From: Alphaproteobacteria bacterium
Lineage (GTDB): Bacteria; Pseudomonadota; Alphaproteobacteria; Rhizobiales; Xanthobacteraceae
Assembly: GCA_005884465.1 (NCBI GenBank)
Contig: VAZH01000327.1
Coordinates: 1-10,002 of the forward strand
Direction: 5' to 3'
Length of the DNA: 10,002 bases
Both the position numbers and the translations under genes were made by a program. How positions within the stretch are numbered: the first letter of the stretch is position 1; each line of letters starts with the position of its first letter. The notes under the pieces were generated by a model that was given only the letters and a program-made list of their open reading frames with translations, had not been told where the DNA came from and did not search any database. Below are positions 1 to 10,002 of the stretch, piece by piece.

Positions 1-945
1 TTGCAGGCTGGCCCACATTTCTAGATCGCGCTCCGCGGTCCAGATCACGGGATCATCGATCCCCGAGGCTTCGTCGAAGGCCCGCGAGACATTGAACGGC
101 AGGCAGTGTTCGTAGATTGCAAAACTCGAAAATTTCGGGTCCATCACCTCGCGCGTCGCCGCCATGGTCTCCTTGAGGTTACGGCCCTTGGCGACCGCCG
201 ATTCCGCCGCGCCATAGAGCGTGGTGACGAAATCGCGCGTCATCGCGATGGCGTCGCGCCCGGTTGCAATACCCTTGAGGGCGTCGCCGCGCCCCGGCGC
301 GATCGCCTTGGGATTGAAGGCGCGAATTTCGTTCAGCGTCATCGGCCATTCGCGCAAATGCGCGTCGCCGCAATAGCAGGCGGAATGATATTCGATCAGG
401 TCGCCGGAAAACATCACTTCCGCATCCGGTACCCACGCGACGATGTCGCCGGAGGTATGTCCGGCGCCGAGCGCCATCAAGCGCACTTCGCGTTTTCCAA
501 GATAAATCGACATCTCGGTTTCAAAGGTCAGCGTCGGCCAGGTCAGGCCCGGGATGCTCTGGGTATCCTGGAACAGCCGGGGAAAGCGGCCGTATTCGGA
601 GTCCCAATCCTGCTGGCCGCGCTCCTCGATCAGCCGATAGGTTTCCTCGGATGCGATAATTCCCTGTGCCTTGTAGGCGGAAGCCCCGAGCACCCGCACC
701 GCGTGATAATGCGACAACACTACATATTTGATCGGCTTGTCGGTGACGGTTCGTACCCGCTCGATCACTTTGTTTGCCATGGCGGGCGTCGCCTGCGCGT
801 CGAACACGATGCAGCCATCGTCGCCGACGATGACAGCCGAATTGGGATCGCCCTCCGCAGTGAAGGCATAAAGATCGGTGCCGATCTCGGAGAACGTGAC
901 TCTCTTCTCCGCCAGATCTGCAGTGGACGCGAAACCCTTCGCCAT
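1..945 (-). CDS. MBL-fold metallo-hydrolase with only one metal site (3' end cut by window edge)
   Basis: The frame is open from an ATG at 945 to the left edge (315 codons, no stop seen), so the C-terminus is incomplete, probably by little. The start has a good Shine-Dalgarno (AAGAGGAA on the minus strand, 949-956). The metallo-beta-lactamase fold is shown by the N-terminal strand pattern (NSAVIVGDDGCIVFDA), the HxH motif (H79, H81), GHTSGD with H163, and FSGDL with bridging D182. The canonical HxHxDH reads HYHAVR here, so the Asp and final His are V83 and R84. The usual C-terminal GHG reads GRG (R219). All ligands of metal site 2 are therefore gone, while site 1 (H79, H81, H163) is kept. A Cys/His cluster (H187, C190, C192, H196) follows D182. 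It is the last visible gene of the operon with the DUF2783 protein (14-bp gap) and the monooxygenase. Substrate unknown; a mononuclear hydrolase or a binding role in aromatic degradation is inferred. Confidence 0.9.
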   Translation of the reverse strand, partial: MAKGFASTADLAEKRVTFSEIGTDLYAFTAEGDPNSAVIVGDDGCIVFDAQATPAMANKVIERVRTVTDKPIKYVVLSHYHAVRVLGASAYKAQGIIASEETYRLIEERGQQDWDSEYGRFPRLFQDTQSIPGLTWPTLTFETEMSIYLGKREVRLMALGAGHTSGDIVAWVPDAEVMFSGDLIEYHSACYCGDAHLREWPMTLNEIRAFNPKAIAPGRGDALKGIATGRDAIAMTRDFVTTLYGAAESAVAKGRNLKETMAATREVMDPKFSSFAIYEHCLPFNVSRAFDEASGIDDPVIWTAERDLEMWASLQ

Positions 946-959: not shown

Positions 960-1184
960 TTACTGTTGTTGTTGTTGCTGCTGGCCGGCCGCCACCATCC
1001 GCCGCTGCGCCAGCGCGATCGCCTCGCGCAGCACGTCGAGATCGCCGATGTGATTGGCAAGAATCAAAACCAGCGCCGCGTCGAGGTCGGCGCTTTCCTC
1101 ATCAGTCAGTCCGCGATGTGCCTCGACGATCGCGCGAAATGCATCATCCGGCTTGGCAAAATTCGAGCTGGTGGACAATGCCAT
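960..1184 (-). CDS. DUF2783 domain-containing small protein with C-terminal poly-Gln
   Basis: A 74-residue protein starting at ATG 1184. Its Shine-Dalgarno (TGAGG) overlaps the stop codon of the upstream monooxygenase; the gap between the two genes is 11 bp. The core (GLTDEESADLDAALVLILAN, then IGDLDVLREAIALAQ) matches my memory of DUF2783, a family of about 60-75 residues of predicted helical proteins often encoded beside FAD monooxygenases. No signal peptide, membrane segment or catalytic motif is visible. The last seven residues (68-74) are all Gln, encoded by CAG/CAA codons. By position it may be a small partner or coupling protein for the flavoprotein. The two-gene 3-hydroxyphenylacetate hydroxylase MhaA/MhaB of Pseudomonas has a similar large-plus-small layout, but homology to MhaB is not shown here. 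Sure of the gene, fairly sure of the family, unsure of function. Confidence 0.88.
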   Translation of the reverse strand: MALSTSSNFAKPDDAFRAIVEAHRGLTDEESADLDAALVLILANHIGDLDVLREAIALAQRRMVAAGQQQQQQQ

Positions 1185-1195
1185 GATCGAAAACC

Positions 1196-2809
1196 TCAGT
1201 TGATGCCGGCCGCGCGCGCCAGCGCGCCCTCGAGGGCCGATCGTGTCGGCTGCCGGAAGCGCGCGGCAACATAGCCATCAGGCCGCAGCAGATAGGCCGT
1301 GCCCGGCTCGGCATCGTAGCGTGAGCGGACGAGGCCTTCGCAGTCGGAAAAACCATCATGGCCGCCGATGCGGATCGCCCCCAAGCCTTCCCCAGCATCG
1401 ACCGCCGCGCCATTGGCAAACTCAAGCAGCGTGAACCGCGTTCCCGCTTTGATGAAAGCATCGATCAGATAGGTGGAGGTGCCGCCGCGCCCGGCGATCG
1501 GCGCGTCAAGCATGGAAGCGCCGGGCGGCGGGCCGCCGCGCCATGCATCGCAATCGGCGCTCGAAAGCGGCGAGTCATAGATCGAGGGAACCGAGAGCCG
1601 TCCGCCATTGATCATGCGCTTGCCGAATTCCGTTTCCCTGGCCAGCGACAGCACCGCCTGCCGCAAGCGCGCTTCCTGGCGCGAACCAGGCGCCATGAAA
1701 TCGGTCGAGCGGGTCGATTCGCGGATATTCTCGTCGGCTGCAGCGCTGCGCTCGACATGATAGCTCTCCAGCAATGCCTCCGGCGATATCCTCTTCAGCA
1801 CGCGATCCAGTTTCCACGCCAGGTTCTCGGCATCTTCCAGACCGGAATTGGCGCCACGGGCGCCGAACGGCGAGACCTGATGCGCCGCGTCGCCGGCAAA
1901 GATCACGCGGCCGTGAATGAATTTGTCCATCCGGCGGCACTGGAATTTGTAAAGCGAGATCCACTCGAAATCGAATTTTTCGTGCCCGAGCATGCGCGCG
2001 ATCCGCGGCCGCACGTTTTCCGGCCGCTTCTCGACCGCAGGATCGGCATCCGGATGGAGCTGCAGATCGATCCGCCAGATGTCGTCCGGCTGCTTGTGCA
2101 ACAGCGCCGATCGCCCGGCGTGAAACGGCGGGTCGAACCAGAACCAGCGCTCGGTCGGAAATTCCGCCGTCATCTTGACGTCGGCAATCAGAAATTGATC
2201 CTCGAATACTTGTCCCTTGAATTCGGCGCCCACCATTTGCCGCAGCGACGATCGCGCGCCGTCGCAGGCGACGACATAGCTTGCGCGCATCCGATACGAC
2301 CCGTCCGGCGTCTCGATCGTTACCACGACATGGTCGTTACGTGGCTCCAATCCGATCACCTTGTTGCGCCAGCGCAGGTCGACTGCGGACAACTCCTGCA
2401 CCCGGTCCACCAGATAGGCTTCGGCATGGAATTGCTGGAGGTTGATGAACGCGGGCCGCTTGTGCCCCTGTTCCGGCAGCAGGTTGAATTGATAAAGTAA
2501 CGACGCACCGTGAAAAATTCTGCCGACGCTCCACACCACGCCCTTGTCCACCATGCGGCTGCCGACGCCGAGCCGGTCCCAGTACTCCAGCGAGCGCTTG
2601 GAAAAACAGATCGCGCGCGAGCCCTCGCCGATCCGGTCGGCGTCGTCGAGCAGCACGACAGGTTGGCCGCGCTGCGCCAGATCGATCGCGAGCGACAACC
2701 CAACCGGCCCGGCGCCGACCACGACGACGAGATGTTCAGCCAAGTCGGCGCCGGTGCGATCCTGATCGGGGTGGCGGCGGTAGCCGAACTGGGTTTTGGA
2801 CTGCGCCAT
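1196..2809 (-). CDS. FAD-dependent monooxygenase (PF01494, MhpA/3-HPP hydroxylase-like)
   Basis: A 537-residue group A flavoprotein hydroxylase. Such enzymes use NAD(P)H and O2 to hydroxylate phenolic rings in the cytoplasm. Visible motifs: the Rossmann GAGPVG (32-37) after four Val, the acidic end of strand 2 (D55-D56), the DG motif (D183-G184 in ACDGARSSL), and the GD motif (G306-D307 in FAGDAAHQVSPFGARGANSG) that contacts the FAD ribityl and pyrophosphate. The last ~110 residues match the C-terminal region of the MhpA/phenol hydroxylase group and end in YLLRPDGYVAARFR. I chose ATG 2809; the frame extends upstream to a TTG at 2833, which would add eight residues. An AAGG lies about 10 bases before 2809. 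It is first gene of an operon with the DUF2783 and MBL genes and diverges from marR across a palindromic operator. The substrate is probably a hydroxylated aromatic acid; sequence alone does not fix it. Confidence 0.93.
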   Translation of the reverse strand: MAQSKTQFGYRRHPDQDRTGADLAEHLVVVVGAGPVGLSLAIDLAQRGQPVVLLDDADRIGEGSRAICFSKRSLEYWDRLGVGSRMVDKGVVWSVGRIFHGASLLYQFNLLPEQGHKRPAFINLQQFHAEAYLVDRVQELSAVDLRWRNKVIGLEPRNDHVVVTIETPDGSYRMRASYVVACDGARSSLRQMVGAEFKGQVFEDQFLIADVKMTAEFPTERWFWFDPPFHAGRSALLHKQPDDIWRIDLQLHPDADPAVEKRPENVRPRIARMLGHEKFDFEWISLYKFQCRRMDKFIHGRVIFAGDAAHQVSPFGARGANSGLEDAENLAWKLDRVLKRISPEALLESYHVERSAAADENIRESTRSTDFMAPGSRQEARLRQAVLSLARETEFGKRMINGGRLSVPSIYDSPLSSADCDAWRGGPPPGASMLDAPIAGRGGTSTYLIDAFIKAGTRFTLLEFANGAAVDAGEGLGAIRIGGHDGFSDCEGLVRSRYDAEPGTAYLLRPDGYVAARFRQPTRSALEGALARAAGIN

Positions 2810-2851
2810 GCACTCAAACCTTGCTCTGGCCAAGGGACCTCGTCCCCGCTA

Positions 2852-2875: not shown

Positions 2876-2909
2876 AAACGCCTCTGACGGTGCGCCGTCA
2901 ACTCAAATT

Positions 2910-2913
2910 GGAG
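2910..2913 (+). promoter_or_regulatory. Shine-Dalgarno supporting the TTG start of marR
   Basis: GGAG lies six bases before TTG 2920. No comparable purine-rich motif precedes the in-frame GTG at 2890, so this site decides in favour of the downstream start. Confidence 0.5.
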
Positions 2914-2919
2914 CGATTT

Positions 2920-3459
2920 TTGCCAAAAGCGTTTTCAGGCCAGGGAGCCACCGGCCGGCGCGACGAAAACGCGTCCGACAAAGGCTCCAGCCTCGACCTG
3001 TTCAGGTTCGTGCCGTTCCGGCTGAACCGGCTGGCGGCCGAGGTTTCGGCGGCGCTGTCGGGCGAATATCAGGAACGCTACGGGCTCGACATTCCGGAAT
3101 GGCGCGTGCTGGCGACGCTCGGCTTCCGCAACGATGCGTGCAGCGCGCAATACATTGCGCATTGCACCCGAACCCACAAATCCACCATCAGCCGCGCGGT
3201 CACGGCGCTGATGACGCGGCAACTGGTGGAACGCGTCGAGAATGAAGACGACCGCCGCGAGTTCCAGCTGCGCATGACACGAAAGGGCAAGGCGCTGTAC
3301 GAGGAGCTGATCCCGCGGCTGAAGCGCAGGGAGCAGCAGATCCTTTCCTGCCTCTCCGCGCAGGAGCGCAAGGATTTTGCGATTATGCTCGGCAAGATCG
3401 AAAAAAGCCTCGGTCTCGTGCAGACCAGCAGGGAAGCGGACAAAACAGGCGCGTATTGA
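2920..3459 (+). CDS. MarR-family transcriptional regulator
   Basis: A 179-residue winged helix-turn-helix protein. The helical N-terminal dimerisation part (about 25-55) is followed by the DNA-binding domain: recognition helix near 86-101 (HKSTISRAVTALMTRQ) and the wing with the family signature DDRREFQLRMTRKG (110-123). A C-terminal helix completes the dimer interface. MarR proteins usually repress and are released by phenolic ligands. This gene diverges from the aromatic monooxygenase operon across a 24-bp palindrome, which argues for ligand-relieved repression of that operon plus autorepression. The start is uncertain: TTG 2920 has GGAG at a good distance, while GTG 2890 adds ten residues and lacks a clear ribosome site. 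The first ~24 residues are polar and look disordered, somewhat longer than usual for the family. The ligand cannot be read from sequence. Confidence 0.92.
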   Translation: MPKAFSGQGATGRRDENASDKGSSLDLFRFVPFRLNRLAAEVSAALSGEYQERYGLDIPEWRVLATLGFRNDACSAQYIAHCTRTHKSTISRAVTALMTRQLVERVENEDDRREFQLRMTRKGKALYEELIPRLKRREQQILSCLSAQERKDFAIMLGKIEKSLGLVQTSREADKTGAY

Positions 3460-3745: not shown

Positions 3746-4552
3746 TTATTTCGCAAACGAGCGCGATGGTTGCAGGTGCAATGCATAGGCATCGACCTCG
3801 TCGCTGGCGCGCGGATAGATCTCGGTCACGATCGGATCGTGCCCGGGAATGACGCGGTCGGAATGGCCGGCCAAACGCGCCACGATGTTCCAGCCCTCGA
3901 ACATGTCGCCGAGGTTATAGAGAATCGGAAACGGGCTCTTGCGATGCATGTTGGCGTAATAGTGCGAAGCGTCGGACGCCAGCACCACCGGGCCCCGCGC
4001 GGTCTCAACCCGCACCACCTGCAGGCCATCGGAATGGCCGCCGACGCGATGCAGCGTCACGCCGGGCGCCACCTCGCCGTCGCCGGCGTGAAAGGTCACC
4101 CGCTCGCTGAAGACGTGGCGGACCATCAGCGTGACATGCTCCACCGAGAAAGGATGACGCAGCACGCCGTGGCACATGCAGCGCCCGGTGGCGTAGCTCA
4201 TCTCGCGGTCCTGCAGATGAAATCGCGCATTGGGAAACAGCTCGAGATTGCCGGCGTGGTCATAGTGCAGATGGGTGACCACGACATCCCTGATGGCTTC
4301 GGCGCGGACGCCGAAGCGCGCCAGCGCCTCGACCGGATTAAGCGTGAGCTTGCGGTTGCGCGCTTGCGCCTCTGCCGCGTTGAAGCCGGTGTCGACCAGA
4401 ATATCGCGGCCGTAGCCTCGGATCAGCCAGACGAAGTAGTCGAGGTCTTGCGCGGAGGTCTCATGCGGATCGGGCAGCAGGTGATTCATGTGGGGCGTTC
4501 GCCGCGACATCGTCGCATAGCGAATGGCGTAGATTTCGTAGGCGTTTTCCAT
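3746..4552 (-). CDS. N-acyl homoserine lactonase-like MBL-fold hydrolase
   Basis: A 268-residue metallo-beta-lactamase fold protein. All two-metal ligands are present: H94, H96, D98 and H99 in HLHYDHAGN, H173 in GGHSDG, bridging D194 in ASDASHYY, and H238 in PGHDP. The layout and length match the AHL lactonase (AiiA-like) branch, which opens lactone rings, although many bacterial members have unknown substrates. No signal peptide is visible, so it is likely cytoplasmic. I chose ATG 4552, which has GGGAAGA on the minus strand eight bases upstream (4561-4567); the frame extends to a TTG at 4621, but the added residues look like translated leader. It is a single gene, convergent with marR and divergent from the caspase-like gene. 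Quorum quenching or a lactone step in catabolism are both possible; the substrate is inferred only from the family. Confidence 0.88.
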   Translation of the reverse strand: MENAYEIYAIRYATMSRRTPHMNHLLPDPHETSAQDLDYFVWLIRGYGRDILVDTGFNAAEAQARNRKLTLNPVEALARFGVRAEAIRDVVVTHLHYDHAGNLELFPNARFHLQDREMSYATGRCMCHGVLRHPFSVEHVTLMVRHVFSERVTFHAGDGEVAPGVTLHRVGGHSDGLQVVRVETARGPVVLASDASHYYANMHRKSPFPILYNLGDMFEGWNIVARLAGHSDRVIPGHDPIVTEIYPRASDEVDAYALHLQPSRSFAK

Positions 4553-4867
4553 CGGTTCACTCTTCCCGGATGCGCGATTGGCCGATGTCGGCACCAAGAC
4601 ACCGTCATCGGCAAAGGTCAAACGTGCCTGGCCGTCTGCTTTGAGCAGGGCCCTTTTGCTATGTGAGAGGCGTCACAGGCTTGTTGCCCGCCAAGGGAAC
4701 CCCTTTCCCTCGCGTGTCAGTTTATTGCGGTGAATTGTCGCGATTACCGGCGGCTTTGCAAACAGTTGACAGGGCTTGCCGACCCGGTTTGATAATGCGG
4801 TTTTCGTAGAGTAAGGTCGCCGAGGCGCAAGCTGGAATCGGCGCCCCGTTGGTTGGACCGCCGTGGA
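4553..4867. other. Divergent intergenic region
   Basis: About 315 bases separate the AHL lactonase-like gene from the caspase-like gene. It holds a sigma-70-like promoter on the plus strand (4766-4796) and an AGGGAA/TTCCCT hairpin around 4700. I find no convincing small gene. The minus-strand promoter for the lactonase-like gene must also lie here, but I cannot place it. Confidence 0.5.
4766..4796 (+). promoter_or_regulatory. Candidate sigma-70 promoter for the caspase-like gene
   Basis: A perfect -35 TTGACA (4766-4771) and a -10-like GATAAT (4791-4796) are separated by 19 bases, slightly wide. Using TGATAA as the -10 gives 18. Transcription would begin near 4803 and leave a leader of about 65 bases before ATG 4868. 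Confidence 0.5.
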
Positions 4868-6307
4868 ATGATAATTCGCCTCGCACTGCTTGTGATCTTT
4901 GTGTTGTCGGTTACCCCGATCATCCCGTCCGCCGCTGCGGGCGCCGATCGATTTGCGCTTGTGATCGGCAATGCGAAATATCCCGACGCCGAAGCGCCGC
5001 TCAAGGAGCCGATCAACGACGCCCGTGACATTGCCGAAGAACTCAAGCGCGACGGCTTCAACGTCGAGATCGGAGAAAACCTGACCGGCGACGCGATGCG
5101 CCGCGCCTTCGAGCGCCTCTACGGACGCGTCAAGCCCGGCTCTGTCGCGCTGATTTTCTTTAGCGGATTTGGCGTCCAGTCCAGCCGTCAAAGCTACATG
5201 ATCCCGGTCGACGCACAGATCTGGATCGAAGCGGATGTTCGCCGCGATGGTTTCAGCCTGGAGACGGTACTGGGGGAAATCAACAGCCGCGGCGCAGGCG
5301 TCAAGATCGCCCTGATCGATGCCTCCAGACGCAATCCGTTCGAGCGCCGCTTCCGCAGTTTTTCCGCAGGCCTGGCGCCGGTGATTGCGCCGAACGGAAC
5401 GCTGGTGATGTATTCGGCGGCGCTCTCTTCCGTCATCTCCGACAATGGCCGCGATCACAGCCTGTTCGTGCAGGAGTTGCTCAAGGAAATCCGCGTTCCC
5501 GACCTGATGGCCGAAGAGACGCTTAATCGGACCCGGGTCGGCGTCACCCGCGCATCCCGCAGCGAGCAGGTGCCGTGGATTTCGTCCTCCCTGGCCGAGG
5601 ATTTTTCGTTTATCCCAGGCGCGGGCGGATCGCGACCTTCCGCTCCCGGTCCGGTGGCGACGCTTCCCCCACCCTCCGAACCGCCGCCGCCTCCGCGCGT
5701 TGATCCGTTGCCGCCGCCCCCAAAGCCGGTCGAAGTCTCGATTCCCCCTCCTGAAAAACCGGCCGACAAGCCGGCGGACAAGAATGACGGATCGACGCCG
5801 GTGGCGCTTGCCGATGACCCGCTCATCAAAAGCCTGACCGCCAAGCTCACGGACAATCCGGACGACGCCAGCGCGCTCTATCGGCGCGGACAGGTCTATG
5901 CCAGCAAGGGGGCGTATAACCTTGCCATCAAGGACTTCGATAGCTCGATCAGACTGAACCCCAAGGACGTGGAAGCCTTCAACAATCGCTGCTGGGCGCG
6001 CACCGTGATCGGCGACCTGAAGGCGGCATTGAAGGATTGCAACGAGGCGCTTCGGTTGCGACCGAACTTCGTCGATGCCCTCGACAGCCGCGGCCTCGTC
6101 AACCTGAAGAGCGGACAGACCAAAAATGCGATTGCCGATTTCGACGCGGCCCTGAAGATCAATCCGAGACTGACGTCCTCGCTGTACGGGCGTGGCCTCG
6201 CCAAACAGCGCAGCGGGGCCGTCTCGGAGGGTGAACTGGATATCACCAATGCCAAGGCCATGGACCCGAATATTGCTAAGGAATTCGCCAGTTACGGGGT
6301 AAATTGA
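4868..6307 (+). CDS. Secreted caspase-like (peptidase C14) pseudoenzyme with TPR repeats
   Basis: A 479-residue exported protein. Residues 1-24 form a signal peptide (MIIRLALLVIFVLSV, ending SAAA-GADRF). Residues ~26-250 are a caspase p20-like domain, recognised by FALVIGNAKYP, the LKEPINDARDIAEELKRDGF helix, SYMIPVDAQ and ALIDASRRNPF. The catalytic His (normally AGHG) is F101 in FFSGFG (codon TTT, 5168-5170), and the catalytic Cys (normally DACR) is S153 in DASRR (codon TCC, 5324-5326), so proteolysis by the known mechanism is excluded. A Pro-rich linker (258-298) could span periplasm or cell wall. Four exact 34-residue TPR units follow (332-365, 366-399, 400-433, 434-467), a protein-binding scaffold. 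An in-frame TTG at 4853 would add five residues; ATG 4868 is preferred, though neither has a strong ribosome site. The OmpA-C gene follows 163 bp later in the same direction. A periplasmic binding or scaffold role is inferred. Confidence 0.9.
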   Translation: MIIRLALLVIFVLSVTPIIPSAAAGADRFALVIGNAKYPDAEAPLKEPINDARDIAEELKRDGFNVEIGENLTGDAMRRAFERLYGRVKPGSVALIFFSGFGVQSSRQSYMIPVDAQIWIEADVRRDGFSLETVLGEINSRGAGVKIALIDASRRNPFERRFRSFSAGLAPVIAPNGTLVMYSAALSSVISDNGRDHSLFVQELLKEIRVPDLMAEETLNRTRVGVTRASRSEQVPWISSSLAEDFSFIPGAGGSRPSAPGPVATLPPPSEPPPPPRVDPLPPPPKPVEVSIPPPEKPADKPADKNDGSTPVALADDPLIKSLTAKLTDNPDDASALYRRGQVYASKGAYNLAIKDFDSSIRLNPKDVEAFNNRCWARTVIGDLKAALKDCNEALRLRPNFVDALDSRGLVNLKSGQTKNAIADFDAALKINPRLTSSLYGRGLAKQRSGAVSEGELDITNAKAMDPNIAKEFASYGVN

Positions 6308-6457
6308 CAATAATTTGAGTGGGGCGCCGGCACTTGCTCGAACCCCGGGACAGGCGCCGGACACAAACGGAAAGTGGCTGAAACTACGAAGCACCAGCTC
6401 GCGGCCGTTCCGTCCGGAAGCTTATTCGCAAATTGATTGGAACCGCGCGGGCAGCGC

Positions 6458-6463
6458 AGGAGG
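6458..6463 (+). promoter_or_regulatory. Strong ribosome binding site of the OmpA-family gene
   Basis: AGGAGG lies seven bases before ATG 6471. It fixes the start there, although the frame is open back to 6315. The signal peptide beginning at 6471 agrees. Confidence 0.8.
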
Positions 6464-6470
6464 ACTGGCA

Positions 6471-7127
6471 ATGTCGAAAATATCTGGAAGGAGAAGTCTC
6501 ACCGCGATCCTTTCGCTTCTGACGCTTGGCGCCGCGCTTTCATTTGGCCTGGGCAAAGCCGTTGCCGCCGACGATGTCACCGAGGATCAGATCGTCCGGG
6601 CGCTTGCGCCCAAGAAACCCCTGACCAGAGGCCTGTCGTCGGGTCCTCAGGCCGATCCGGCGGCGATCGCCGCGGAAGGCCGTTTTGTTCAGACCATCCG
6701 CGGCCGCGCCACGCGCTCGCTCTCGAGCAGCGAGCGCGAAGAAATCGCCACCATCGCCAAGGACAAGCCGAATATCGATCTGGAAATCAACTTCGATTAC
6801 AATTCAGCCGATATCAGCAAAAAATCACTGCCCTCGGTTCAGGCGCTCGGGAAAGCGCTTACCAATCCCGATTTGAAGGGCTCGACCTTCGTTGTCGCGG
6901 GCCATACCGACGCTGTCGGCAGCGACCCCTATAACCAGGATCTGTCGGAGCGGCGCGCGGACTCGGTCAAGCGCTATCTGGTCGAAAAGTACGGAATTCC
7001 CGGCGCTGACCTCGTGACCGTCGGATACGGCGAGACCAAGCTCAAGGACCCGAAGAACCCGACCTCGGAAGTCAACCGCCGCGTGCAAGTCGTCAACATG
7101 GCGAACAAGACCACCGCCTCCAAGTGA
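6471..7127 (+). CDS. OmpA-family peptidoglycan-binding protein
   Basis: A 218-residue exported protein. The signal peptide spans residues 1-33 (basic start, hydrophobic LTAILSLLTLGAALSFGLG, cleavage after AVA). A linker of about 70 residues follows, with no beta-barrel. The OmpA C-terminal domain covers roughly 103-212: LEINFDYNSADIS, then VVAGHTDAVGSDPYNQDLSE, RRADSVKRYLVEKYGI, and VGYGETKLKDP...VNRRVQVV. D147 (in HTDAVG) and R162 (in ERRADSV) match the Asp and Arg that hold diaminopimelate in characterised OmpA-C domains. It is probably periplasmic and bound to the cell wall rather than an outer-membrane porin. It follows the caspase-like TPR gene by 163 bp on the same strand, and co-transcription is plausible. 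No lipobox Cys is visible. Confidence 0.93.
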   Translation: MSKISGRRSLTAILSLLTLGAALSFGLGKAVAADDVTEDQIVRALAPKKPLTRGLSSGPQADPAAIAAEGRFVQTIRGRATRSLSSSEREEIATIAKDKPNIDLEINFDYNSADISKKSLPSVQALGKALTNPDLKGSTFVVAGHTDAVGSDPYNQDLSERRADSVKRYLVEKYGIPGADLVTVGYGETKLKDPKNPTSEVNRRVQVVNMANKTTASK

Positions 7128-7346: not shown

Positions 7347-8273
7347 ATGATGCTCTCCGAATACCTCAAGCCTGCGTTGGGAGTGGTGGTCGCGGCAGCG
7401 CTGGTGGGCGGATGGTATTGGTTTGAGCATCGCCCGCGGCCCGAGGAGAAGGAAACGCCCAGCAACGCTCTGGTCATTGTGACGAAATCCAGGGGCAATG
7501 CGTGTTTCTCCGACCTGGTGCGGGTCACCGGATTCATCGTGCCGCGCAGGGAAGCGGTTGTTGGGGTCGATCAGGAAGGATTCAAGGTTTCCGATGTTCT
7601 GGTCCGGGAAGGCGAAACGGTCACCGAAAATCAGGAGCTGGCCCGGTTGACGCCGCCTCCGGCGCAGCCCGGCGCCGGCGCAAGGCCATCCGCGCCGACG
7701 TCGTTGCGCGCGCCGGCTGCCGGTCTCGTCACCGAGGTCAAGACCATCGTCGGAGCGCCGGCCTCGCCACAGGCCGGGCCGATGTTTCGGATTTCCGTCA
7801 ACAACGAGATCGAGCTGGATGCCGAAGTGCCGGCGGTCCATATGCTGAAACTCAATCCAGGCGCGACGGCGCGGATAAGCCGGGATAATGCGCCTGATCT
7901 GGTGGGACGCGTCAGGCTGGTTTCGCCGCAAATCGATCGCACCACCCAGCTCGGCCATATCAGGATATCGTTGACCAATAATCCCTCACTCAAGGTCGGC
8001 ATGTTTGCCCGCGCCAACATCGACGCCAAGCGCAGCTGCGGCGTGGCCGTTCCACGCACCGCCATTGACCATCTGACCGTTCAAGTGGTCAAAGGTAATA
8101 CCGTTGAGACGCGAAGGGTTCGGACTGGACTGGTATCCGATACCGATATCGAAATCCTTGAAGGCCTCGCCGAGGGCGAAATCGTCGTGGCCGACGCTGG
8201 CTCTTCGCTGCATGACGGCGACCAGATCAAGACCATGTTCGCCGAGGAACTCGATCGAGCGCGGGTACGCTGA
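7347..8273 (+). CDS. RND efflux periplasmic adaptor (membrane fusion protein), hairpin-less
   Basis: A 308-residue HlyD/AcrA-type adaptor that couples an inner-membrane RND pump to an outer-membrane channel. One N-terminal membrane anchor (9-26) precedes the periplasmic part. The first lipoyl half-motif is about 72-102 (GVDQEGFKVSDVLVREGETV) and the second about 120-149 (LRAPAAGLVTEVKTIVGAPA). They are joined by only ~17 Pro/Ala/Gly-rich residues (103-119), where most family members have a long alpha-helical hairpin. The beta-barrel part follows (IELDAEVPAVHMLKLNPGA to LKVGMFARANI), then the membrane-proximal domain (VPRTAI to EGLAEGEIVVADAG). Usual length is about 350-400 residues, and the missing hairpin accounts for the difference. 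Two adjacent ATGs (7347, 7350) are possible starts. The stop overlaps the pump start by one base (TGATG), showing translational coupling. No local regulator gene is seen. Confidence 0.9.
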   Translation: MMLSEYLKPALGVVVAAALVGGWYWFEHRPRPEEKETPSNALVIVTKSRGNACFSDLVRVTGFIVPRREAVVGVDQEGFKVSDVLVREGETVTENQELARLTPPPAQPGAGARPSAPTSLRAPAAGLVTEVKTIVGAPASPQAGPMFRISVNNEIELDAEVPAVHMLKLNPGATARISRDNAPDLVGRVRLVSPQIDRTTQLGHIRISLTNNPSLKVGMFARANIDAKRSCGVAVPRTAIDHLTVQVVKGNTVETRRVRTGLVSDTDIEILEGLAEGEIVVADAGSSLHDGDQIKTMFAEELDRARVR

Positions 8274-10002
8274 TGGCTCTCAATATCTCGGCATGGTCGA
8301 TCCGAAATCCGCTGCCTTCCGTCGTGTTTTCGATCATCCTTTTGGTGCTGGGCTGGGTCAGTTTCACCAAGCTTGCGGTGACGCGGCTGCCCAGCGCCGA
8401 CATTCCGGTGATCTCGGTCGCGGTATCGCAGTTCGGCGCCGCCCCGGCCGAGCTTGAATCGCAAGTTACAAAAACCATCGAAGACGGCGTCTCGGGCGTC
8501 GAGGGCGTGCGGCACATTTCATCCTCGATCACCGACGGACTGTCGCTGACCACGATCCAGTTCGCGCTTGAGACCAACACCGACCGGGCGCTCAATGACG
8601 TCAAGGACGCCGTCACAAGGGTGCGCGCCAACCTGCCGCAAAACGTCAACGAGCCGCTGATCCAGCGCGTCGACGTCATCGGCCTACCGATCGTTACCTA
8701 TGCCGCGATCTCGCCAGGCAAGACGCCGGAGCAACTGTCCTACTTCGTCGACGACGTCGTCAAACGCGCATTGCAGGGTGTGCGCGGCGTCGCCCAGGTC
8801 GAGCGCATCGGCGGTGTCGAGCGCGAGATTCTCGTCTCGCTCGACCCCGACCGGCTGCAGGCCGCGGGGCTGACCGCCGTCAATGTCAGCCAAAGCCTGC
8901 GCGGCACCAATGTCGACCTCGCCGGCGGCCGCGCCGAGATCGGCAAGAACGATCAGGCGATCCGGACGCTGGCCGGCGCCAAGACGCTCAATGATCTCGC
9001 GGGAACGATGATTCCGCTGTTCGGCGGCGGCGAGGTTCGTCTCGACGATCTCGGCACCGTCACCGACACCATCGCCGACCGCCGCACCTTCGCACGCTTC
9101 AACGGCGAACCCGTGGTGGCGCTCGGCATCAAGCGCTCCAAGGGCGCCAGCGACGTCGTGGTCGCAGCAGCCGTGCAGAAGCGTATCGACGTGCTGAAGG
9201 TCGCCTATCCCGATGTCGATTTGAAACTGATCGACACGTCGGTGGAGTTCACAAAAGGCAATTATGAAGCCGCGATCTCGACGCTGTTCGAAGGCGCTAT
9301 TCTCGCCGTCATCGTCGTGCTTTTGTTCCTGCGCGATATCAGAGCGACGATCATCGCCGCGATCTCGCTGCCGCTGTCGATCTTCCCGGCATTCTGGGCG
9401 ATGGACCTTCTTGGTTTCTCGCTCAACCTCGTCAGCTTCCTCGCCATCACGCTGTCGACCGGTATTCTGGTCGACGACGCCATCGTCGAGATTGAGAACA
9501 TCGTGCGCCACATGCGGATGGGCAAGTCGCCCTACCGTGCCGCGCTGGAGGCCGCCGACGAAATCGGGCTGGCCGTCATCGCGATCTCGCTGACCATCAT
9601 CGCGATCTTCGCGCCCGCAAGCTTCATGTCCGGCATCGCCGGTCAATTCTTCAAGCAATTCGGCATTACGGTTTCGGTGCAGGTGTTCTTCTCGCTATTG
9701 GCTGCGCGCTTCGTCACGCCGGTGCTGGCGGCCTATTTCCTGAAGGATCATCCGCACGACGATCCACCGCCGGGGCGCGTCCTGCAGGGTTACACAAAGC
9801 TGGTGACGTGGTCGGTCCGGCATTACTTGATCACCGTTCTGATCGGCTTCGGAATCTTCGCCGCCTCGATCTGGAGCATTACGCTGTTGCCGCAAGGCTT
9901 CCTGCCGGCGCAGGACACCGCGCGTTCGCTGTTGGCGATGGAGCTGCCGCCCGGCTCCCAGCTTGCCTTCACCGAGAAGACCACCGAGGAAATCGTTTCG
10001 CG
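8273..10002 (+). CDS. RND multidrug efflux pump, HAE type (3' end cut by window edge)
   Basis: An inner-membrane proton-driven pump subunit. 576 codons are visible, about 55% of a typical ~1030-1050 residue RND protein. TM1 is at about 17-34 (SVVFSIILLVLGWVSFTKL), followed by the periplasmic porter region. TM2-TM6 lie roughly at 336-490, and another membrane segment near 519-539 begins the second half. The proton-relay pair of TM4 is intact (D401-D402 in GILVDDAIVEIENIV), the HAE/AcrB pattern rather than the CzcA metal-pump pattern. ATG 8273 overlaps the adaptor stop by one base. Substrates are probably hydrophobic or amphiphilic compounds. No substitutions in visible key residues were noticed, so the pump looks functional. 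Confidence 0.95.
   Translation, partial: MALNISAWSIRNPLPSVVFSIILLVLGWVSFTKLAVTRLPSADIPVISVAVSQFGAAPAELESQVTKTIEDGVSGVEGVRHISSSITDGLSLTTIQFALETNTDRALNDVKDAVTRVRANLPQNVNEPLIQRVDVIGLPIVTYAAISPGKTPEQLSYFVDDVVKRALQGVRGVAQVERIGGVEREILVSLDPDRLQAAGLTAVNVSQSLRGTNVDLAGGRAEIGKNDQAIRTLAGAKTLNDLAGTMIPLFGGGEVRLDDLGTVTDTIADRRTFARFNGEPVVALGIKRSKGASDVVVAAAVQKRIDVLKVAYPDVDLKLIDTSVEFTKGNYEAAISTLFEGAILAVIVVLLFLRDIRATIIAAISLPLSIFPAFWAMDLLGFSLNLVSFLAITLSTGILVDDAIVEIENIVRHMRMGKSPYRAALEAADEIGLAVIAISLTIIAIFAPASFMSGIAGQFFKQFGITVSVQVFFSLLAARFVTPVLAAYFLKDHPHDDPPPGRVLQGYTKLVTWSVRHYLITVLIGFGIFAASIWSITLLPQGFLPAQDTARSLLAMELPPGSQLAFTEKTTEEIVS

Follow-up and report, generated by a model that had tools for sequence, protein, structure and literature searches.

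A described system that the locus analyzed here resembles is MhaAB of P. xenovorans LB400, in which MhaA (560 aa) and MhaB (60 aa) are encoded beside hmgA1B1C1 and have been proposed to act as a 3-hydroxyphenylacetate 6-hydroxylase (PMC3053370). For P. putida, MhaAB was described in 2024 as accepting 3- but not 4-hydroxyphenylacetate, and the same report relates the hypothesis that MhaAB of LB400 carries out the NIH shift of 4-hydroxyphenylacetate (PMC10983741). Hosts of a C1-hydroxylation route are listed in a review, which also cites a 4-hydroxyphenylacetate 1-hydroxylase activity and, in its account of that activity, names no MBL-fold protein (PMC9338888). The operon bll2330-bsl2328 of B. 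diazoefficiens is given as VOC-FAD oxidoreductase-DUF2783, with no MBL gene in the list of its members (PMC6710368). Within the MBL fold itself, the persulfide dioxygenase ETHE1 is a mono-iron enzyme that binds its iron through His, His, and Asp, and the metal-2 ligands of the B1 metallo-beta-lactamases are D120, C221, and H263 (PMC4383860). The word "lactamase" is absent from PMC3053370 and PMC10983741, and the MBL family presented below is not described in the pathway literature reached, which covers open-licence PubMed Central papers from part of the long result lists.

The window, by which we mean the whole analyzed stretch of 10,002 bases, is the entire contig C542 and stems from a 3.83 Mb genome bin that is 70.9% complete (Table 1). 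Among named organisms, those closest to it belong to Bradyrhizobium. It begins with a gene for an MBL-fold protein, whose translation is free of stop codons across its 315 aa. A DUF2783 gene and then a gene for an FAD monooxygenase sit upstream of it in the same direction, and a MarR-like gene, found here on the opposite strand, is close to most Bradyrhizobium copies of the MBL gene. The same genome bin contains a second MBL copy, which is 95% identical (contig C582, 48-989), is followed by HmgA, and possibly represents a second strain within the bin. The remainder of the contig encodes a second, separate MBL-fold protein, which resembles quorum-quenching lactonases; all of its NCBIfam scores lie below cut-off (AiiA, 59.8 of 375 bits), and homologues at E <= 1e-30 occur in 66 of the 80 genome_contigs loci described below, with 89% identity in L040.

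Table 1. Features of the window, with the codons of the seven site residues of the MBL-fold protein
Feature	Position	Strand	Remarks
MBL-fold protein, second metal site replaced	1..945	-	315 aa; contig end precedes stop codon
R219 codon	289..291	-	Replaces C-terminal site-2 His; PGRG vs PGHG
D182 codon	400..402	-	Bridging-ligand position, kept
H163 codon	457..459	-	Site-1 ligand position, kept
V83 codon (697-699) and R84 codon (694-696)	694..699	-	Replace Asp and His of HxHxDH
H79 codon (709-711) and H81 codon (703-705)	703..711	-	Site-1 ligand positions, kept
DUF2783 protein	960..1184	-	74 aa, poly-Gln C-terminus; PF10932 95.3 bits, cut-off 25
FAD-dependent aromatic monooxygenase, PRK08132 subfamily	1196..2833	-	NF006002 788.7 bits, cut-off 416
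MarR-family regulator, divergent from operon	2890..3459	+	PF12802 47.3 bits, cut-off 27
Second MBL-fold gene	3746..4621	-	Full HLHYDH
Caspase-domain (Peptidase_C14) protein with TPR repeats, then OmpA-family protein	4853..7124	+	
HlyD-type membrane-fusion gene, then AcrB-type RND pump gene	7347..10000	+	Pump gene runs off contig

The protein encoded at the start of the window belongs to the MBL-fold superfamily: it scores 52.9 bits against Pfam Lactamase_B (PF00753, cut-off 22.7), and its predicted model, with a pLDDT of 93.3, matches MBL proteins in the PDB. The first-pass annotation had read H79, H81, H163, and D182 as an intact first site with its bridging aspartate, and V83, R84, and R219 as replacements of all residues specific to the second site. 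All seven residues, as well as H187, C190, C192, and H196 of a nearby cluster, stand at the stated positions in the window translation, so the protein has neither of the metal-2 ligands, Asp and His, that define a two-metal MBL hydrolase. The reading of the three changes holds for two of them: Asp to V83 and His to R219 are true ligand losses. Judged by the B1 enzymes, R84 does not count as a lost ligand, because these carry HxHxDR and bind metal 2 through D120, C221, and H263; in the alignment, BcII (3KNR) shows this HxHxDR motif at the position of R84. Relative to the sister sequences of the family, R84 is nonetheless a change.

Relatives came from three sources: whole genomes of Pseudomonadota, 80 genome_contigs loci (the top-scoring 80 of 347), and 40 retrieved stretches. 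The alignment has 159 rows, of which 151 are distinct; L003 and L152 (a 25%-identical paralogue from the same genome) were left out, L079 has one stop within the matched stretch, and L151 covers residues 5-258 only. The distinct relatives are at least 44% identical to the window protein and are not independent, as the 80 loci, which make up half of the rows, belong to Bradyrhizobium or its kin and are at least 91% identical. Sequence comparisons revealed that all seven site residues are kept in 150 of the 151 distinct relatives, the sole departing row being L144. Taken singly, H81, R84, H163, and R219 occur in all 151 rows and H79, V83, and D182 in 150, and the ETHE1-like combination of H79, H163, and D182 is likewise found in 150. 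Among the 79 rows from outside the genome_contigs set, near-copies included, V83 is present in 78 and R84 and R219 in all. A classical second site, with D83 and H84 or with H219, is found in none of the 151 distinct rows. Homologues with full HxHxDH and GH motifs in the DUF2783 and monooxygenase context, an outcome that the first-pass annotation had named as refuting its reading, were thus not encountered (0/151). The loss is coordinated and not scattered; it is shared throughout a clade of many Pseudomonadota families, in the predicted gene context, and the replacement of the second site is confirmed as a family trait. Scattered decay or a pseudogene was rejected on the agreement of 150 of the 151 rows.

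Conservation outside these seven positions is uneven. The cluster H187/C190/C192/H196, suggested in the first-pass annotation as a source of substitute ligands, is complete in only 107 of the 151 rows, with Gly, Glu, Pro, Leu, Thr, Tyr, and other residues in its place elsewhere; as a set of new ligands it was rejected for this variability. Several other residues are invariant or nearly so, namely Y191, D194, R120, and R123 (151 of 151 each), E185 (150), and H280 (150, with one gap), and these might line the pocket.

The history of the replacement was traced with a sister set of 20 sequences from outside the family, obtained by a profile search of 70 genomes. HxHxDH is kept in 19 of these 20 and the PGHG histidine also in 19, with L181 as the exception for both. 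A tree built from 81 family rows and 20 sister rows sets the family apart on one side of a branch with support of 100/99; the same tree flags long branches among the sisters, and which of them is nearest is unsure. Since the family is monophyletic and the sisters keep the full motif, the second site was altered a single time, where the family arose, and the alteration has persisted since.

The distribution of the family was analyzed in 398 Pseudomonadota genomes, using thresholds of E <= 1e-60 for the MBL protein and E <= 1e-100 for the monooxygenase, with three monooxygenase candidates scored per genome. The MBL protein is present in 60 genomes, the PRK08132 monooxygenase in 59, and DUF2783 in 58, and all 59 and all 58 fall inside the 60. 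No genome among the 398 has the monooxygenase or DUF2783 without the MBL protein. Fisher tests, which ignore relatedness and give a sense of scale only, yield p = 5e-68 for MBL and DUF2783 and p = 3e-70 for MBL and monooxygenase. In a separate family sample of 61 genomes, MBL and DUF2783 occur in 25 each and always together, 3 of the 25 being shared with the 398-genome sample. The MBL protein, the FAD monooxygenase, and DUF2783 are thus a near-obligate trio in Pseudomonadota, where the association was tested.

Linkage alone is insufficient to explain this co-occurrence, because the MBL and DUF2783 genes are unlinked in three genomes: a single contig carries both in G019 (3.82 and 0.89 Mb) and in G231 (0.73 and 1.42 Mb), while in the three-contig genome G324 they occupy two contigs. 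They are also found on different contigs of six drafts (G333, G338, G366, G367, G424, and G448). Evidence against a strict one-to-one bond comes from G335, which has two DUF2783 genes and one MBL gene, and from the B. diazoefficiens operon, in which a monooxygenase and DUF2783 pair is listed with no MBL gene (PMC6710368). PRK08132 monooxygenases outnumber DUF2783 genes in several trio genomes (G287, G379, G324, and others).

DUF2783 is missing from two MBL genomes, G004 and G139. In G004, the match to the monooxygenase breaks off at position 464 of 552, 78 bases before the contig end, and the DUF2783 gene may have been cut off by that end. G139 contains neither partner gene, though HPPD and a short HmgA-like gene are present. 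Its MBL protein (L144) carries N79, L83, and A182 and is the only relative in which H79 and D182 are lost, and it is likely to be a natural pseudoenzyme or to have acquired a new function.

The link to HmgA is looser. HmgA is found in 108 of the 398 genomes (106 above cut-off), 49 of which have the MBL protein and 59 of which do not. Conversely, the main HmgA model finds no match in 11 of the 60 MBL genomes, two of which have a short form; neither of the two HmgA models tried is matched in the remaining nine. Given these nine, the end product of the pathway may not always be homogentisate.

Gene neighborhoods were compared in two sets of loci. In the 80 genome_contigs loci, the monooxygenase, DUF2783, and HmgA are each present in all 80, FAH in 77, and HPPD in 67. 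In 38 diverse loci, covering about 5 kb per side, the monooxygenase is found in 30, DUF2783 in 28, HmgA in 16, and a related aldehyde dehydrogenase in 5, with some homogentisate lower-pathway gene in 22. Matches were accepted from 40 aligned residues, with 40% identity also required for the monooxygenase, a rule that sets aside a 29% monooxygenase match in L142 and a 35-residue DUF2783 match in L132. Within the 22 homogentisate loci, L145 is counted for an FAH-like gene alone, which was named by eye, and L150, L158, and L159 for MaiA alone. The eight loci without a nearby monooxygenase are L127, L138, L140-L144, and L156; seven of the eight genomes, all except that of L144, hold one elsewhere.

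Individual loci illustrate the context of the trio. In L040, the operon continues with homogentisate 1,2-dioxygenase (679.5 bits, cut-off 510.75) and fumarylacetoacetase (590.5 bits, cut-off 375.3); 4-hydroxyphenylpyruvate dioxygenase is encoded nearby in L117 and maleylacetoacetate isomerase in L129, and L125 adjoins a PaaX-like gene and a short HmgA-like gene. In L147, the trio genes lie on either side of a set that includes genes of the methylamine/aralkylamine dehydrogenase type (above Pfam, below NCBIfam cut-offs) and genes for an aldehyde dehydrogenase (below every model cut-off), an indolepyruvate/phenylpyruvate decarboxylase, and an acetoacetate-CoA ligase. Such a gene set is consistent with a route in which a para-hydroxylated amine or keto acid is converted to 4-hydroxyphenylacetate by way of 4-hydroxyphenylacetaldehyde, but in its genome (G204), neither HmgA model nor HPPD found a match. 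The DUF2783 proteins vary at the C-terminus: a run of approximately 6-15 Gln (window positions 960-1000, minus strand) is present in most Bradyrhizobium copies among the 60 of 100 adjacent pairs listed, and is absent from the eight listed copies of other genera in the family (L013, L033-L039).

The two partner genes resemble MhaAB in layout: as in the published description of LB400, a flavoprotein of about 560 aa and a coupling protein of about 60 aa adjoin hmgA (PMC3053370). In the window, an FAD flavoprotein and an adjacent small protein are both found, each scoring above the cut-off of its model (Table 1). G324 has the order monooxygenase, DUF2783 (a match of 59 positions), HmgA. Because G324 repeats the LB400 order with a protein of similar size, DUF2783 is probably an MhaB-type coupling protein, by analogy of size and gene order and not of sequence. 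The FAD monooxygenase of the window is probably an MhaA-type hydroxyphenylacetate hydroxylase. In P. putida U, mhaAB reportedly yields homogentisate from 3-hydroxyphenylacetate unaided.

Our preferred reading, held with moderate confidence, is that the MBL protein is a catalytic single-metal enzyme in a near-obligate trio with an MhaA-type monooxygenase and an MhaB-type DUF2783 protein, encoded in an operon for the formation and degradation of homogentisate. Aromatic-acid oxidation would then probably have a third part that has been overlooked, and the gene would not be a decayed one. From the replacement of the second-site residues, we infer that each chain would bind one metal. Two observations favor a mononuclear enzyme: few residues are kept as strictly as D182 and the site-1 ligands, and the sole relative that lost H79 and D182 comes from the only MBL genome of the sample in which both partners are missing; a purely ligand-binding role is less likely, as metal ligands would not then be expected to stay invariant.

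In the mechanism that we propose, one metal, zinc or, as in ETHE1, iron, would be held by H79, H81, H163, and/or D182. R219 and R84 would occupy the places of the second metal and its ligand, where they probably give a fixed positive charge that binds a carboxylate or oxyanion of the substrate. The enzyme would act on a compound peculiar to the monooxygenase reaction, the likeliest being the product; with 4-hydroxyphenylacetate as substrate, the target would be the ring-hydroxylated p-quinol or its lactone, and the MBL protein would help to deliver homogentisate to HmgA. This substrate and reaction, the processing of a quinol or lactone, are a tentative guess. The tie to the monooxygenase's own product or substrate, and not to homogentisate, is drawn from two facts: the distribution of the MBL protein matches that of the monooxygenase rather than that of HmgA, and in the only MBL genome that lacks the monooxygenase the site is broken although homogentisate genes are present. 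Several points count against the preferred reading: the reported formation of homogentisate by mhaAB of P. putida U unaided, the 4-hydroxyphenylacetate 1-hydroxylase activity described with no MBL protein named, the nine MBL genomes in which neither HmgA model is matched, the eight diverse loci with no monooxygenase nearby, and the B. diazoefficiens operon listed with no MBL gene. A more specific version, which we consider unlikely, would make the MBL protein the missing rearrangement component between 4-hydroxyphenylacetate and homogentisate. The flavoprotein and DUF2783 would form the C1 p-quinol, and the single Lewis-acid metal of the MBL protein, with R84 and R219 gripping the carboxylate, would drive the 1,2-shift of the carboxymethyl group (as an isomerase) or open a quinol lactone so that the shift can occur.

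Other roles have to be weighed against this single-metal enzyme. It is rather unlikely that the protein hydrolyses an ester, amide, or thioester, either upstream, to supply the monooxygenase, or downstream, to release what a CoA-dependent carboxymethyl shift has formed. Hydrolysis is the prevailing activity in the MBL fold, of which the thioesterase glyoxalase II is an example, and a thioesterase is said to act in the carboxyl shift of 4-hydroxybenzoate; the distribution with the monooxygenase rather than with HmgA would also suit such a hydrolase. However, among the 25 neighbor clusters listed, no CoA ligase was recognized by eye, although one cluster is a CoA-transferase.

A non-catalytic or structural function, as a third subunit of the monooxygenase, would account for the near-perfect co-occurrence with both partners, and some database proteins combine DUF2783 and Lactamase_B in one chain (P0006, P0007, P0009, P0010, and others listed). 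We regard this role as quite improbable, given that the metal ligands are kept in all distinct relatives except L144 and that the MBL gene is unlinked in some genomes. In-frame DUF2783-MBL fusions, considered as a sign of a complex, were found in 0 of 100 adjacent pairs, and this argument for a complex was rejected.

The adjoining homogentisate genes could instead point to a general homogentisate lactonase or to an enzyme that clears benzoquinone acetate, and lactonases are common within the MBL fold. The genomic distribution makes this very doubtful: more than half of the HmgA genomes (59/108) lack the MBL protein, which tracks the monooxygenase and not HmgA, and G139 has lost MBL ligands although it retains HPPD and a short HmgA-like gene. 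An ordinary two-metal site built from other ligands, either H187, C190, C192, and H196 or E185, D194, and H280, is extremely improbable, because the first set is incomplete in many relatives and, for all the near-invariance of the second, V83 and R219 would render the usual site-2 pocket hydrophobic and cationic.

The association of this MBL family with the PRK08132 monooxygenase and DUF2783 is new here. Through it, an unnamed family whose structure has been solved but left unexplained becomes a putative third component, open to testing, of an aromatic-acid hydroxylase. For the NIH-shift step between 4-hydroxyphenylacetate and homogentisate, which in LB400 has been assigned to MhaAB as a hypothesis only (PMC10983741), the family supplies a candidate. 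Furthermore, it shows clearly that fixed arginines can take the place of one MBL metal site and persist throughout a large clade, and L144 is a naturally broken copy from a genome in which the partner genes are missing.

Comparison with known MBL proteins places the replacement of the second site as a variation within the MBL fold and not as a new fold. The SoxH-related quinoprotein-relay hydrolases (TIGR04558, 114 vs 300 bits in NCBIfam) were rejected as an identity for the window protein. Membership in subclasses B1 and B2 is likewise not supported, with NCBIfam scores of 79.1 against a cut-off of 200 bits (NF033088) and 63.5 against 240 (NF033087). Beta-lactamase identity was rejected on these scores, and there is no reason to expect lactamase activity. 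Compared with the B1 and B2 enzymes BcII, CphA, and Sfh-I, the window protein has no equivalent of D120 or H263, and its D182 stands at the C221 place of the B1 enzymes; the alignments with these proteins stop near its residue 241-250, leaving approximately 65-75 additional C-terminal residues. The chlorothalonil hydrolytic dehalogenase (6UXU) is 19% identical to the window protein and acts in a different pathway. The iron ligands of ETHE1 occupy places equivalent to H79, H163, and D182, according to the published description of its site (PMC4383860), but ETHE1 retains an unused Asp83, His84, and His195 where the window protein has Val, Arg, and Arg. A relative of solved structure is the MBL superfamily protein 8D2Z of Burkholderia cenocepacia, deposited in 2023 under a generic name only, for whose function no paper was found in the open-licence PubMed Central literature. 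It carries the same seven site residues, which, given a three-residue insertion, would be numbered H79, H81, V83, R84, H166, D185, and R222 in 8D2Z; it is homologous to the window protein over the full length and stands beside the G324 protein in the tree.
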